A program made the position numbers and the translations under genes. The notes beneath the pieces were generated by a model that was not told where the DNA came from, ran no database searches, and saw only the letters and a list, made by a program, of their open reading frames with translations. A DNA stretch of 23,653 nt from a virus: the IMG/VR virus record IMGVR_UViG_3300017729_000038, positions 1 to 23,653 of that record, one strand, 5' to 3'. Below, one piece after another: positions 2,401 to 23,064 of this stretch. Every line of letters begins with the position of its first letter. The stretch's first letter is position 1.

Positions 2401-2663
2401 CGAGGGAAGATATCTTGCGCACGGCGGGTGACTTGATCACGGGCGACAGGCAGCGGACGTATGGATCCGCAAAGGCGTCGCACGCGACCATTGCTGGCAT
2501 GTGGTCGGCGTATCTCGGCGTGCCTGTGACCGAGGTGGACGTGGCGGCGATGATGGTGCTGCTCAAGGTATCGCGGTCGCGCTCAAGCGATCACTCGGAT
2601 AACTGGGTGGACGTGTGCGGTTACGCTGCGATAGCGGGTGAACTGGAGGCTGGCGATGGGTGA
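2394..2663 (+). CDS. DUF6378-like phage protein
   Basis: This 89-aa protein has the pattern I associate with DUF6378: an R-x-YG segment (RQRTYGSAKASHATIAGMW), WSAYLG, then VDVAAMMVLLKVSR and a C-terminal DNWVDVCGYAAIAGEL. The family is common in phages near replication or packaging genes and has no established function. The conserved Asp, Lys/Arg and Tyr residues suggest a small all-helical fold. The start ATG sits inside the stop region of the previous gene (CCATGGTAA), and the gene overlaps the next start at 2656 by 8 nt. The family name is from memory and was not searched. Confidence 0.78.
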   Translation: MVTREDILRTAGDLITGDRQRTYGSAKASHATIAGMWSAYLGVPVTEVDVAAMMVLLKVSRSRSSDHSDNWVDVCGYAAIAGELEAGDG

Positions 2664-3099
2664 AATCGGGAAGGCGAAGATCGCGGCGATCAACGCGGTC
2701 GGCGAGGACGAGATATTCGACCGGATGTCACGCGGTGAAACCGTGAGCAAGATCATTGGCGAGTTCAATGTGGGGTGGAAGCTGTGGAACAAGTGGCTCG
2801 ACGCTGAGCGTGGGCGTAAGGAGCGCTACAGAGCGGCTCAGGAGGCCGCTGGGCACTTCTTCGCGTCACGCGCGGTGGATACGGCGCAGAGCGCTGATCC
2901 CGCGACGGTGAACGTGTCACGGCTTCAGGTGGACACCGACAAGTGGATCGCGTCGAAGCTGAACCAGCAATACGATGTGCGGCAGAAGGACATCGCGATC
3001 AACATCAGCGTGAACGACTTGCACGCGCAGGCAGCGCAGTTGCTTGGCGACGTGGACGATATCGAGGACGCTGAGATCGTGGAAGAGGATGGCGAATGA
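2656..3099 (+). CDS. terS: Probable terminase small subunit
   Basis: 147 aa. The ATG at 2656 follows GGAGG at 2645-2649 with a 6-nt gap and is preferred over the GTG at 2638. An N-terminal helix-turn-helix-like segment runs from about residue 16 to 45 (IFDRMSRGETVSKIIGEF, then WKLWNKWLD). A helical middle (residues 50-105) contains RLQVDTDKWIASKLN, common in small terminases and related packaging regulators. The tail is acidic (DDIEDAEIVEEDGE). Small terminases bind the packaging site and load the large subunit. The terL gene follows after a 344-nt regulatory gap. The role rests on fold pattern and position; a DNA-binding regulator is the alternative. Confidence 0.72.
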   Translation: MGEIGKAKIAAINAVGEDEIFDRMSRGETVSKIIGEFNVGWKLWNKWLDAERGRKERYRAAQEAAGHFFASRAVDTAQSADPATVNVSRLQVDTDKWIASKLNQQYDVRQKDIAINISVNDLHAQAAQLLGDVDDIEDAEIVEEDGE

Positions 3100-3245
3100 T
3101 GGCGATTTTGCACATCGAGAGAGGGAAGCGCATAGGCGCGCGCGGTTACACATTTTTGACCAAATGGTCAAATATCGACGCTCCGCAGCGCAGAAATATG
3201 CACAACGATACAACTTTAAATAGTTGTAAAACGCTAACGTGCTGA
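3096..3245 (+). CDS. Possible 49-aa overlapping ORF (doubtful)
   Basis: An ATG at 3096 overlaps the terS stop as ATGA and opens a 49-codon frame (MMAILHIERGKR..., ending ...CKTLTC) that stops at 3245. It could be translated by termination-reinitiation. No family is recognised and composition becomes AT-rich and non-coding-like after about 3190. The first RutR-type palindrome lies inside it. It is most likely a chance frame. Confidence 0.2.
   Translation: MMAILHIERGKRIGARGYTFLTKWSNIDAPQRRNMHNDTTLNSCKTLTC
3156..3171. promoter_or_regulatory. RutR-box-like operator, perfect palindrome
   Basis: TTGACCAAATGGTCAA matches all 14 specified bases of the published E. coli RutR box, TTGACCAnnTGGTCAA. 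RutR is a TetR-family regulator released from DNA by uracil or thymine, and homologues exist in many Alphaproteobacteria. The match is seen in the sequence; host binding is inference. Confidence 0.65.
3209..3228. repeat. Small AT-rich dyad
   Basis: TACAACT (3209-3215) and AGTTGTA (3222-3228) are perfect 7-bp complements around TTAAAT. It sits between the two RutR-type boxes. It could be a minor operator or a weak hairpin. No U-tract follows, so it is not an intrinsic terminator. Confidence 0.4.
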
Positions 3246-3247
3246 TA

Positions 3248-3275
3248 TTGCTGCATATTTTATTTAACATAATAA
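3248..3275 (+). promoter_or_regulatory. Candidate sigma70-type promoter before terL
   Basis: TTGCTG (3248-3253) and TAATAA (3270-3275) are 16 bp apart inside the AT-rich core. Transcription would start near 3282, so the downstream RutR-type box (3312-3327) would lie about 30-45 bp into the transcript, suitable for blocking. The match to consensus is partial and AT-rich DNA gives such pairs by chance. Confidence 0.35.
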
Positions 3276-3311
3276 CGATTATGCGATTCCAGCCGGTTTC
3301 GGGCGCGTTTT

Positions 3312-3327
3312 TTGACCAGATGGTCAG
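3312..3327. promoter_or_regulatory. Second RutR-box-like operator
   Basis: TTGACCAGATGGTCAG matches 13 of the 14 specified RutR-box positions; only the last A is replaced, by G. Its centre is 156 bp from the centre of the first box, close to 15 helical turns, so both would lie on a similar face of the helix. Confidence 0.55.
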
Positions 3328-3443
3328 GTTTGACCCCCCCCTCTTTTGGCGCGGCGGGGTGCAATTGCAATGACCCCCCCACGCATACCCGCCATACCCC
3401 CCACCCCTTCACGTTTTCCGAAAAATAGGAGCCACGCGAAAAA

Positions 3444-4865
3444 ATGACCAGCACCCCCGCACCCCAAGATAACCCGTTTCTGGCGCTCATGCGCCGCTAT
3501 CGTGACGACCCTGTCCGCTTTGCCGAGGAGGTCATTGGCATCGAGCCCGACGAGTGGCAGGTTGAGCTGCTGGACGCCGTCTCCGCGCCTGCCATACGCC
3601 GTGTAAGCGTGCGCAGCGGCCACGGCGTCGGCAAAAGTACCGGCGTCGCCATGGCTGCGCTGTGGCACGTGTTGATGCGCGTGCCGAGCAAGACGGTTGT
3701 CACGGCGCCCACCAGCGCGCAGCTATTTGACGCGCTGTTCGCTGAGATGAAGGCATTGGCCAAGAAGCTGAAGCCGCCGTTTGACAGCCTGCTAGAGGTG
3801 AAGTCTGATCGGATTGAGTTAAAGAGCCACCCCGAGAGCACGTTTATTTCGTGCAGGACGTCACGGGCGGAGCAGCCCGAGGCGCTGGCCGGCGTTCACA
3901 GCCCCTCGGTGCTGCTGCTTGCTGACGAGGCCAGCGGGATACCCGAGGCGGTGTTTGAGGCTGCCAGTGGGTCGATGTCCGGCCACACCGCGACGACGGT
4001 GCTGACGGGCAACCCCACGCGTAACACGGGGTTCTTCTACGAGACGCACAATCGGCTGCGCGACGACTGGCACACGATGCATGTTTCCTGTGTGGACAGC
4101 CCGCGCGTCAGCGATGACTTCGTGGCGGATATGCAGCGCCGCTACGGGCCCGATTCCCCCGCTTATCATGTGCGCGTGCTTGGCAATTTCCCGCCGTCCG
4201 AGGAGGACACGGTGATACCCGTCTCGCTGATCGAGGCTGCCATGGCCAGCGACGTGCGTGTGCATGAGAATACGGCGAGCATATGGGGTCTGGACGTCGC
4301 GCGTCAGGGCGGGGATGCGTCTGTCTTGGCCAAGCGGCAGGGGCCCGTCGTGCATCCGCTCAGCGTGTGGCGCAATCTCGATCTCATGCAGCTTACTGGT
4401 GCCGTGAAGGCGGAGTATGACGCGCTGCCCGCGGATAAGCGTCCGCAGGAGATCATCGTGGATAGCAACGGGTTCGGCGCAGGCGTGCTGGATCGGCTGC
4501 GTGAGGTTGGGCTGCCGGCGCGCGGGTTGAACGTGTCGGAGCGCGCCGCCGCCAATCAGACATATGTGAACCTGCGCGCGGAGCTGTGGTTCAAGGCGAA
4601 GGCGTGGCTGGAGGGTATGGATGTTAAGCTGCCGCGTGACGACGCGTTATATGCTGAGCTGGCGGCGCCGCGATATCACTTCACGTCAAGCGGCAAGATG
4701 CAGGTCGAGAGCAAGGACAGCATGAAGAAGCGGCGCGTTGCCTCGCCAGATCGCGCCGACGCCGTGTGCCTGTCATTGGCGACAGACCACACGGCGATGC
4801 ATTTCGGTTCCAAGGTTGGCGGGTGGGGCGCGCCCCTTCGCAGGGGCATACGCGGGGTCGTTTAG
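3444..4865 (+). CDS. terL: Terminase large subunit
   Basis: 473 aa, a normal length. The ATP-driven packaging motor has Walker A SGHGVGKS (58-65), Walker B VLLLADE (156-162) and a coupling-like LTGNPTRNTGFF segment (187-198). The RNase H-like nuclease domain that cuts concatemers has acidic residues in WGLDVARQGGD (D284), IIVDSNGFGAGV (D340) and SPDRADAV (D436/D439). The product acts at the portal with the small subunit to fill the prohead. The ATG at 3444 lies 12 nt after AGGAG, a slightly long spacing. The upstream gap carries two RutR-type boxes and a structured untranslated stretch with a terminator follows, so terL may be its own transcription unit. Confidence 0.95.
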   Translation: MTSTPAPQDNPFLALMRRYRDDPVRFAEEVIGIEPDEWQVELLDAVSAPAIRRVSVRSGHGVGKSTGVAMAALWHVLMRVPSKTVVTAPTSAQLFDALFAEMKALAKKLKPPFDSLLEVKSDRIELKSHPESTFISCRTSRAEQPEALAGVHSPSVLLLADEASGIPEAVFEAASGSMSGHTATTVLTGNPTRNTGFFYETHNRLRDDWHTMHVSCVDSPRVSDDFVADMQRRYGPDSPAYHVRVLGNFPPSEEDTVIPVSLIEAAMASDVRVHENTASIWGLDVARQGGDASVLAKRQGPVVHPLSVWRNLDLMQLTGAVKAEYDALPADKRPQEIIVDSNGFGAGVLDRLREVGLPARGLNVSERAAANQTYVNLRAELWFKAKAWLEGMDVKLPRDDALYAELAAPRYHFTSSGKMQVESKDSMKKRRVASPDRADAVCLSLATDHTAMHFGSKVGGWGAPLRRGIRGVV

Positions 4866-20590: not shown

Positions 20591-22408
20591 ATGACCCTCG
20601 TACCCCTCGACATCCCCGCTGGATTTTATCGAAACGGCACTGATTTAGAGCAGTCTGGCCGGTGGCGTGATGGCAGCTTGGTGAGATGGCGTGACAACAG
20701 CTTACGTCCAATCGGCGGCTGGCAGGAGCGCAAAGCGTCATTCAGCACAAACCCTGTGCGCGGGATGCACACATGGGAATCAAACACCGGCACGGCTTAT
20801 TTGGCTGGCGGTTCATATAACGAGCTAAAAGCCATGACAGGCGGCGGCACTGTGTATGACATCGCCCCGACCGATTTGGCGACGGGCCGTGAAGACGCGG
20901 AGGTTGAGACGGGATACGGTTACGGGTTTTATGGCGACGGGTTTTATGGAACGCCGATACAGCAAAACGAAAACGCTGTGCCAGAGGAAGCCACCACTTG
21001 GTCTATCGACAATTTTGGCGAATACCTCGTAGCCTGCTCGAAAGATGACGGACGCCTGCTTGAGTGGCAGCTAGACCCAGCCGCGAAGGCTGCTGTAATT
21101 GCAAACGCCCCGACAAGCAATCTGGGCTTGCTGGTCACAGAAGAACGCTTTATCTTCGCGCTGGGCGCGGGCGGCAACCCGCGTACAGTGTCATGGTGTG
21201 ACCAAGAAAATAACACCCTATGGACACCCGCGTCCACGAACCAAGCTGGCTCGCAGATCCTGCAGACGTCTGGTCAGATAATGCAGGCGATCCGCACCAA
21301 GGGGCAGACGCTAATCATCACAGACACAGACTGCCACGCCGCGGTATACGCAGGCCCGCCATTTATTTACTCGTTTAGTAGAGTCGGAACCTCGTGCGGG
21401 GCCATATCGCGCAAGTCTGCTGTAGATACGGATCTAGGCGTGTTCTACATGGGCCAGCGCGGGTTCTTCTATTTCGACTCCAACAGCGTGCGCGAGCTTC
21501 CATGCGACGTGCATGATTACGTCTTCGGCGACTTCAACCAAGCGCAGCAGTCTAAGGTGTGGGGCTTTACCAACGGACAATTCGGGGAGGTGTGGTGGTT
21601 CTACTGCTCCGAAAACAGCACCGAGATAGACAGATATGTGGCTTACGACTACACCGAGCGCCATTGGCTGATCGGCAACTTGGCGCGCACGTCAGGCACA
21701 GAGCGTGGCGTTTTCCGCTACCCGTTCATGGCGGGAGAGCAACCCGAAACGGTAAACTATACAGTCACGGTGGTTAATGACGGTGGCAATAAATATGCGA
21801 TAGCTGGCATCTCTGGATCTGCGCCAGCTTTGACTTTTGTGCGGGGCAACACATATGTGTTTGACCTCTCAGATGCGTCAAACTCTGGGCATCCTTTTGC
21901 ATTTAGGACAAGCGCAGATGCGTCATACACTACCGGCGTAACGACAACAGGAACGGCTGGGCAAGCTGGAGCCAAGGTTACTATAGTGGTGGCGAGCGAT
22001 GCGCCAGATAGTTTAAAATATTACTGCACCGTTCACGGCAATTCTATGGGCAACACAATTTCTGTTGGCGGGCCTGTCAGCATTTATGACCACGAAGTCG
22101 GGCTAAACGTAGACAGCGGCGCGGTCTTCGCGGAAAGCGGCCCGTTTTCTATTGGCAACGGCGATCAGACTGCGCATGTCACCAAGCTCATTCCAGACGA
22201 GGAAACGCAAGGCGACGTAAATGTGACATTTAAGACACGCTTCTACCCAAACGGCGACGAAAGCAGCCACGGGCCGTACACCCCCAACAACCCGACATCT
22301 GTCCGCTTCGCTGGGCGCCAAATGCGTATGCGCGTTGAGGGCGCAAAGCTGGCACCGTGGCGCGTTGGCAATATGCGCGTTGATATAAAACCGGCGGGGC
22401 GTAGATAA
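20591..22408 (+). CDS. Tail nozzle / stabilisation-like protein with inserted cupredoxin domain
   Basis: 605 aa. The framework looks like large beta-propeller tail proteins of short-tailed phages: RNGTDLEQSGRWRDGSLVRW, LRPIGGWQERKAS, GMHTWESNTGTAYLAGG, FYGDGFYGTP, and a C-terminal FKTRFYPNGDESSHGPYTP followed by RQMRMRVEGA and MRVDIKPAGRR. These proteins form the tube or nozzle below the adaptor. Residues about 388-493 are a separate cupredoxin-like domain that interrupts the framework between RYPFMAG and GPVSIYDHEVG. No strong Shine-Dalgarno is seen before the ATG. The stop overlaps the next start by one base. The nozzle role is inferred from pattern and position. Confidence 0.82.
   Translation: MTLVPLDIPAGFYRNGTDLEQSGRWRDGSLVRWRDNSLRPIGGWQERKASFSTNPVRGMHTWESNTGTAYLAGGSYNELKAMTGGGTVYDIAPTDLATGREDAEVETGYGYGFYGDGFYGTPIQQNENAVPEEATTWSIDNFGEYLVACSKDDGRLLEWQLDPAAKAAVIANAPTSNLGLLVTEERFIFALGAGGNPRTVSWCDQENNTLWTPASTNQAGSQILQTSGQIMQAIRTKGQTLIITDTDCHAAVYAGPPFIYSFSRVGTSCGAISRKSAVDTDLGVFYMGQRGFFYFDSNSVRELPCDVHDYVFGDFNQAQQSKVWGFTNGQFGEVWWFYCSENSTEIDRYVAYDYTERHWLIGNLARTSGTERGVFRYPFMAGEQPETVNYTVTVVNDGGNKYAIAGISGSAPALTFVRGNTYVFDLSDASNSGHPFAFRTSADASYTTGVTTTGTAGQAGAKVTIVVASDAPDSLKYYCTVHGNSMGNTISVGGPVSIYDHEVGLNVDSGAVFAESGPFSIGNGDQTAHVTKLIPDEETQGDVNVTFKTRFYPNGDESSHGPYTPNNPTSVRFAGRQMRMRVEGAKLAPWRVGNMRVDIKPAGRR
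21752..22069 (+). other. Cupredoxin-like domain insertion in the nozzle-like protein
   Basis: Residues 388-493 read as a Greek-key beta-sandwich: NYTVTVVNDGGNKYAIAG, ALTFVRGNTYVFDLSD, SGHPFAFRTS, KVTIVVASDAPDSLKYYC, then the C-terminal metal loop. Candidate type 1 copper ligands are all present: His434 (GHPF), Cys479, His482 and Met486 (CTVHGNSM). The loop spacing C-x2-H-x3-M is between those of plastocyanin and amicyanin. Similar domains occur in marine phage structural proteins, as I recall. Copper binding is not shown. Confidence 0.75.
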
Positions 22409-23064
22409 TGTCGTCGCCGATACTCCCAGCGATAGGCGAGGATCTGCGCCAATGGGGGCGTGGCCTGACGCGTTATCTGACGCAAAACTTGTACAAGCTG
22501 GGCTTTAAGACGCCTGACAGCAGCCCCGCCGAAAACGGCGTCATCTTGTGGGATAACGTAAACGGCTACCCAGTCGTGTCGAAAAATGGAGAGTTCCGGC
22601 AGATTGTGCTGGAGGATGGCCACGCTGACTTTATGAAGACGGCTGACGTCACCCCTGCTGCTGCCAACACGGCGTACAAGCTGACATATGACGCGCCGGT
22701 CGGCAACGACGGCATCACGCAAGGCACGCCAGCGTCGCGCATTGTGTTTGAGGAAGCGGGCCAATACGTCATATCGTTCTCGGCGCAAATATCATCGACG
22801 TCAGCCAGCACGGTTCACTTCTACTTCTGGCCCAGCGTCAACGGAACCAACGTAGCCAACAGCGGCATGACCACTGCGCTGCACCAGAATAACGCCACAC
22901 TGGTCACGTCACGCACGCAAATATTTACCGTTGCGGCGAATGACTACTTGGAAGTGAACTACATGATAGACAACACGGCGGGTTTCTTAAATTACACCGC
23001 AGCGTCTTCGCCTGTGCCAGCGATCCCCGCGTCAACCTTGGCCATTACGAGGCTTCACGGATGA
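22408..23064 (+). CDS. Tail protein with TNF/C1q-like domain
   Basis: 218 aa. The N-terminus (LPAIGEDLRQWGRGLTRYLT, QNLYKLGFKTP) is a helical attachment region seen in podophage tail proteins. Residues about 75-218 form a jelly-roll of C1q/TNF type: RIVFEEAGQYVISFSAQISS, TVHFYFWPSVNGTNVANSG, IFTVAANDYLEVNYMID and a terminal STLAITRLHG. Such domains trimerise and often bind carbohydrate or protein receptors. It follows the nozzle-like gene with a one-base overlap and overlaps the next gene as ATGA. A role at the distal tail is inferred. Confidence 0.8.
   Translation: MSSPILPAIGEDLRQWGRGLTRYLTQNLYKLGFKTPDSSPAENGVILWDNVNGYPVVSKNGEFRQIVLEDGHADFMKTADVTPAAANTAYKLTYDAPVGNDGITQGTPASRIVFEEAGQYVISFSAQISSTSASTVHFYFWPSVNGTNVANSGMTTALHQNNATLVTSRTQIFTVAANDYLEVNYMIDNTAGFLNYTAASSPVPAIPASTLAITRLHG

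Follow-up and report, generated by a model that had tools for sequence, protein, structure and literature searches.

A predicted Xer recombination site between the terminase genes of an uncultured tailed phage, with similar sites in other tailed phages

What is the role of the 344-bp gap that separates the terminase genes terS and terL in the IMG/VR virus record IMGVR_UViG_3300017729_000038? We analyzed positions 1 to 23,653 of this record, and this whole stretch of 23,653 nucleotides is referred to as the window. A first-pass annotation, made from the sequence alone, had interpreted the gap as a control region with two operator boxes for RutR, the host sensor of uracil and thymine, on both sides of an AT-rich promoter-like segment. 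Judged by its sequence, the central conserved element of the gap is best read as a predicted Xer recombination site and not as a promoter. Around this dif-like core lie the two boxes, together with an inverted repeat and an IHF-like sequence (Table 1); the core is conserved more widely than any other feature of the gap and had been missed in the earlier annotation. A scan of the region gave neither a sigma-70-like promoter nor a terminator, which leaves the postulated promoter-like segment without a match. No switch in GC-skew was seen at the core, because nearly all genes are located on one strand. The 89-aa open reading frame at 2394-2663 matches PHROG families labelled 'phosphofructokinase', a label that was probably carried over.

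Table 1. Features in and around the terS-terL gap, in window coordinates.
Feature	Position	Strand	Remarks
terS, small terminase subunit (Sf6-like)	2638..3099	+	PHROG_1482, E=1.6e-12; Pfam PF20901 Sf6_terminase, E=4e-13
Box 1, TTGACCAAATGGTCAA	3156..3171		dyad-symmetric, clade-specific; 0 mismatches to the RutR box TTGACCAnnTGGTCAA (14/14)
Inverted repeat TACAACT-TTAAAT-AGTTGTA	3209..3228		18/20 columns invariant; kept across the window's clade
IHF-like site, TAACGTGCTGATA	3235..3247	+	identified by consensus match only, 1 mismatch to YAANNNNTTGATW
dif-like XerC/XerD core	3262..3289	-	XerC arm GAATCGCATAA (3279-3289), centre TCGTTA (3273-3278), XerD arm TTATGTTAAAT (3262-3272)
Box 2, TTGACCAGATGGTCAG	3312..3327		1 mismatch to TTGACCAnnTGGTCAA (13/14); 14/16 columns invariant in the clade
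C-rich element, TTTGACCCCCCCC...GGTGCAATTGCAATGACCCCCCCACGCA	3328..3389	+	family-wide, in all clades aligned at the core
terL, large terminase subunit	3444..4865	+	tblastn against annotated terminases, best identity 57%

Both boxes lie where they had been placed before and match the RutR box to the reported extent; the spacing of 156 bp and the length of the gap were reproduced as well. The two are direct repeats of each other over 18 nt, with a single difference (156 bp start-to-start), and every other site in the window has at least two mismatches to the RutR box. The claim that two such boxes exceed chance expectation was also borne out: in first-order Markov shuffles of the gap, a single match with at most one mismatch appeared once in 20,000 sequences, and neither two matches nor two like 6-2-6 palindromes of any kind were obtained in the 20,000 (0/20,000 each).

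A TerL search in IMG/VR yielded 80 loci, including 21 (L003-L023) with a TerL of at least 98% identity. Conservation of the boxes stands for these close relatives and is lost with distance. Both boxes were present as YTGACYRRNYGGTCAR in 17/17 close relatives with the whole gap, one allele reading TTTACC..., and L004, a contig that is cut within the gap, retains box 2. The right half of box 1 (GGTCAA) is invariant and box 2 is mostly constant (CTGACCAGATGGTCAG in most close relatives), whereas the neighbouring bases are variable. Across two full genomes from the same clade as the window, the box palindrome forms an intact pair nowhere but in the terS-terL gap. These data support the idea that the two boxes are a genuine pair of sites, dyad-symmetric and kept by selection. 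No boxes were found in relatives with a TerL of 81-86% identity, though the rest of the gap is retained there; since the boxes occur in the window's clade only, their function is not needed by the whole family.

The core between the boxes (ATTTAACATAATAACGATTATGCGATTC on the plus strand) has the architecture of a dif site, with two 11-bp arms of the XerC and XerD type around a 6-bp centre. It shows no mismatch to the proteobacterial dif pattern CGCATAATNNNNATTATGTTAAAT; the best hits in 60 shuffled windows had 4-6 mismatches, on a looser pattern than CGCATAATNNNNATTATGTTAAAT. The XerD arm is identical to that of most gamma- and several betaproteobacteria, the XerC arm resembles the arms of several proteobacteria, and the centre TCGTTA occurs in no dif site of the same compilation (PMC2731167, Table 1).

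In contrast to the boxes, the core is not restricted to the clade. It was detected in 70/70 relatives that hold the gap (TerL 81-100% aa identity), located between terS and terL on the same strand at about -130 to -210 from terL, and the ten relatives without a core are contigs that end within ~135 bp of terL. The XerD arm is near-invariant among the relatives, whereas the centre and the outer XerC arm vary, with about 20 different centres in the window's phage family. Even terL genes with 99% identity differ in this respect, with TCGTTA in most of the clade and TGTATA in L017. A near-constant XerD arm together with a variable centre and XerC arm is more easily reconciled with self-recombination than with a fixed target on the chromosome. 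A site between terS and terL was also found in phage C72C1, whose TerL is 46% identical, here with an XerD arm of the Rhodobacterales type. No tyrosine integrase (PF00589) was detected in 13 near-complete relatives.

The sequences next to the core are less uniform. The offset of the IHF-like site from the core (-30/-31) is constant in several clades, but the site was not seen in every clade; it is perfect in L017, L032 and L074. Beside the core, some of the other clades carry palindromes or repeats of their own, such as TATGCAGTTTTTGCATA and TGCGGTTTCTGCATA in L078. The C-rich element in front of terL possibly represents a cos site or terminus, or a packaging signal. No near-identical isolate phages of the window were found. 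Two related circular metagenomic phages (L100 and L101; MW202711.1 and MW202496.1) carry genes annotated as MqsA antitoxin up to a few kb upstream of terL, and the open reading frame at 22408-23064 of the window is intact, with its homologue in a relative (G013:C1:14937-15592) broken into two frames.

Similar sites occur far beyond this family. A blind scan of IMG/VR with the pattern RATAAYNNNNATTATGTTAAAT gave at least 120 matches, compared to 47 in the whole collection for the reversed pattern, which served as control. Among the matches listed, and with the window's family excluded, 80/99 sites were located outside long reading frames (10/47 controls, p=5e-12) and 16/50 contigs had a PF03237 terL within 3 kb downstream of the site, with the site at most ~2.7 kb upstream (0/47 controls, p=8e-6; one of the 16 under the assumption of a circular contig), and both p-values overstate the independence of the data because the counts include related contigs. 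A PF03237 terL was present in 19/50 non-family contigs among the matches listed, and 9/10 further candidate reading frames beside the sites were large terminases according to PHROGs. The provirus L118 has its site between terS and terL and its own integrase elsewhere; in an E. coli relative of the L118 terminase region, terS and terL overlap and leave no room for an Xer site. Some proviruses combine a mid-genome site with their own integrase. Sites of the RATAAY type were found in 2/184 gammaproteobacterial genomes, a number that says little about host centres, because this pattern omits the commonest gammaproteobacterial dif (CATAA/TATAA); sites of the CATAA/TATAA type were likewise missed by the IMG/VR scan.

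Isolated phages, including lytic ones, extend this list. The lytic coliphage rV5 carries GGTGCGCATAA-TAGGTA-TTATGTTAAAT in a 2.6-kb non-coding gap, which combines both E. coli dif arms with a centre other than the E. coli TGTATA; the rV5 paper noted the non-coding region and the change in skew there and did not mention Xer (PMC3606486). Similar intergenic sites were found in PVP-SE1, Av-05, WildeMaa, the Klebsiella phages Mulock and ST11-VIM1phi8.3 (between terL and portal), Elizabethkingia phage EKP1 (26 bp before the terminase gene), Listeria phage P70 and Rheinheimera phage Barba2S. The deposited record of Pseudomonas phage SYP has an exact terminal repeat of 351 bp, each copy of which contains the site. 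As the sites of rV5, PVP-SE1, Av-05 and WildeMaa lie in a non-coding gap away from the terminase genes, the linkage to packaging is not general. On the sequence level, the arms appear to follow the dif of the host, with E. coli arms in rV5 and the Rhodobacterales-type arm in C72C1. A further hint in this direction comes from P70, a phage of a Gram-positive host: its intergenic site ACTTCCTATAACATACATTATGTTAACT (L299, record positions 55363-55384) has arms that presumably resemble the dif of Bacillus and Listeria.

We see about even chances that a private dif exists in many tailed phages, among them strictly lytic ones. Such a site would be intergenic, with the arms of the host dif around a different centre, and host XerCD would use it, without any integration, to circularize the genomes of infecting phages or to resolve concatemers and dimers; some lineages would have coupled this site to the packaging locus or to terminal repeats and flanked it with phage-specific regulatory boxes. 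For the window itself, the gap is probably a locus at which host XerCD mediates self-recombination of the phage, with the boxes as operator or accessory sites. The core would then recombine phage with phage, since its centre need match only its own copy. One option is that the ends of a genome with terminal redundancy would be joined, resulting in circularization after injection; the other is that two copies within a replication dimer would be recombined, resulting in multimer resolution. The boxes on either side of the core would be bound by a dimeric protein, which could be an accessory protein shaping the synapse or a repressor of the phage that acts at this locus.

A special case of this self-recombination is that the gap is mainly a physical genome end, either a cos site or a direct terminal repeat, and that the core only closes the ends after injection. 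The 357-bp terminal repeat of phage phiM5, which is located just before terL, and the site inside the terminal repeats of SYP are in agreement with such an arrangement, but phiM5 itself has no core. Furthermore, 8 of about 50 family contigs that end up to 5 kb upstream of terL do so within 35 bp of it (L018, L022, L023, L052, L054, L057, L060 and L077, 0-35 bp upstream), and two contigs end ~342 bp upstream of terL (listed besides: L011, L016). These clustered ends possibly mark a genome terminus or a break of the assembly at C-rich sequence. Contig ends were rejected as proof of genome ends, as they scatter and the C-rich tract may merely break assemblies, and one contig has adapter sequence there. 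The latter (L060, G002:C1:1-31) opens with a Nextera adapter at the C-rich part of the gap, an assembly artefact. Altogether, we regard the restriction to a genome end as doubtful.

It seems unlikely that the core is the attP of a temperate tailed phage that integrates at the chromosomal dif via XerCD in the manner of IMEX phages (CTXphi, VGJphi, TLCphi). A dif-like site in a family without tyrosine integrase (the 13 near-complete relatives) would suit such a lifestyle, phiM5 as the nearest isolate has been described as temperate (PMC10386132), and the centre of L017 is the common proteobacterial TGTATA. Integration at dif, however, needs matching bases adjoining the point of strand exchange (PMC4246890), and this need stands against the wide variation of the centres in the family; a site whose only partner is its own copy needs no match to the host. 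Screening of 84,980 species genomes uncovered three terL relatives, none of them with a junction at dif, and no integrated copy of the window's family. In addition, strictly lytic phages have similar sites, and so do proviruses that encode an integrase of their own. A phage-only contig with a 99% identical TerL (L083, JAQYVZ010000053.1) is assigned to a Desulfuromonadales metagenome-assembled genome, where it was probably mis-binned.

Within the proposed Xer locus, the protein that would bind the boxes can be ranked, with a phage repressor first and RutR last. The tentative front-runner is an Arc-like ribbon-helix-helix repressor of the phage itself (PHROG_3180, E=8.9e-8), which would control late transcription or the Xer synapse. 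It comprises 53 aa and is encoded outside the window fragment, beside a RuvC-like Holliday-junction resolvase in relatives (G013:C1:4521-4679 on the minus strand and 20 other records, 21/29 family records). Identity of the repressor is 85-100% among members of the window's clade and 28-48% beyond it, a divergence that parallels that of the boxes, and the TGAC and GTCA half-sites lie roughly one turn of the helix from each other. Half-sites with this distance suit paired ribbon-helix-helix dimers. On the other hand, the predicted DNA-contact residues (Q, G and R, from an alignment with Arc) are identical in all clades, which would predict a shared operator and not clade-specific boxes, and there is no box at the repressor's own gene. 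Another possible binder is a host accessory protein, comparable to ArgR at cer and ArcA at psi, where the flanks of the recombination site are protein-binding DNA for ArgR or ArcA, with PepA (PMC5357621). FNR/CRP and MatP motifs were rejected by eye on spacing (TGAC-N6-GTCA in the boxes versus TGAC-N3-GTCA in matS).

The original proposal, in which the boxes are RutR operators and the host's sensor of uracil and thymine would set the timing of late genes, perhaps through looping, is very improbable. Its starting points remain: the boxes are exact or near-exact to the RutR consensus as given in the first-pass annotation, two such sites exceed chance, and RutR binds a palindrome of ~16 bp (PMC10891134). 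But the likeness, 14/14 and 13/14 in the window, is not maintained in the relatives. In 12/17 close relatives, one or both boxes depart from the RutR box by 2-3 mismatches, with drifted alleles such as CTGACCAGATGGTCAG or CTGACCGGATGGTCAG for box 2 and CTGACTGGATGGTCAA or CTGACTAAGCGGTCAA for box 1, and more distant relatives are box-less. The spacing, which had been taken as about 15 helical turns in favour of looping, is 156, 168 or 172 bp in close relatives and thus does not keep one helical phase. Besides the missing promoter match, no protein in 94 sampled gammaproteobacterial genomes exceeded the RutR equivalog cut-off, a result that only lowers the prior. Taken together, RutR as binder is not supported.

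The spread of such sites in tailed phages, lytic ones included, is of more interest than the window's gap alone. To our knowledge, and in the literature searched, Xer use has been described chiefly for small phages, among them the filamentous ones, that integrate at dif, and our literature search found no report of Xer sites in tailed phages. Tailed phages may borrow XerC and XerD of the host to circularize or to separate their own genomes. If this is true, lytic tailed phages use host Xer in a different way, namely for closing or resolving phage genomes, which would explain how phages without their own recombinase handle terminal redundancy and dimers. Furthermore, xerC and xerD would become host factors for phage growth, and the arms would give a sequence-based hint to the host of uncultured phages.

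A comparison with known systems places the predicted site as follows. Like the chromosomal dif, it consists of an 11-bp XerC arm, a 6-bp centre and an 11-bp XerD arm with proteobacterial arm sequences, but it is located on a phage, between terS and terL. With the IMEX phages the window phage would share the reliance on host XerCD, together with a dif-like site and the lack of an integrase; those phages are filamentous and integrate at dif, whereas the phage described here is tailed and has a centre that is not matched to the common dif. The plasmid sites cer (ColE1) and psi (pSC101) are likewise sites of the host-XerCD type on an extrachromosomal replicon with a centre distinct from dif. Their accessory DNA is found on one side only, in contrast to the boxes on both sides of the core, which also differ in sequence and belong to a tailed phage. 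Finally, the lox site of phage P1 is a tyrosine-recombinase site near the packaging region, at which terminally redundant DNA can be circularized and dimers resolved; P1 encodes its own recombinase, Cre, whereas the window phage would use that of its host.
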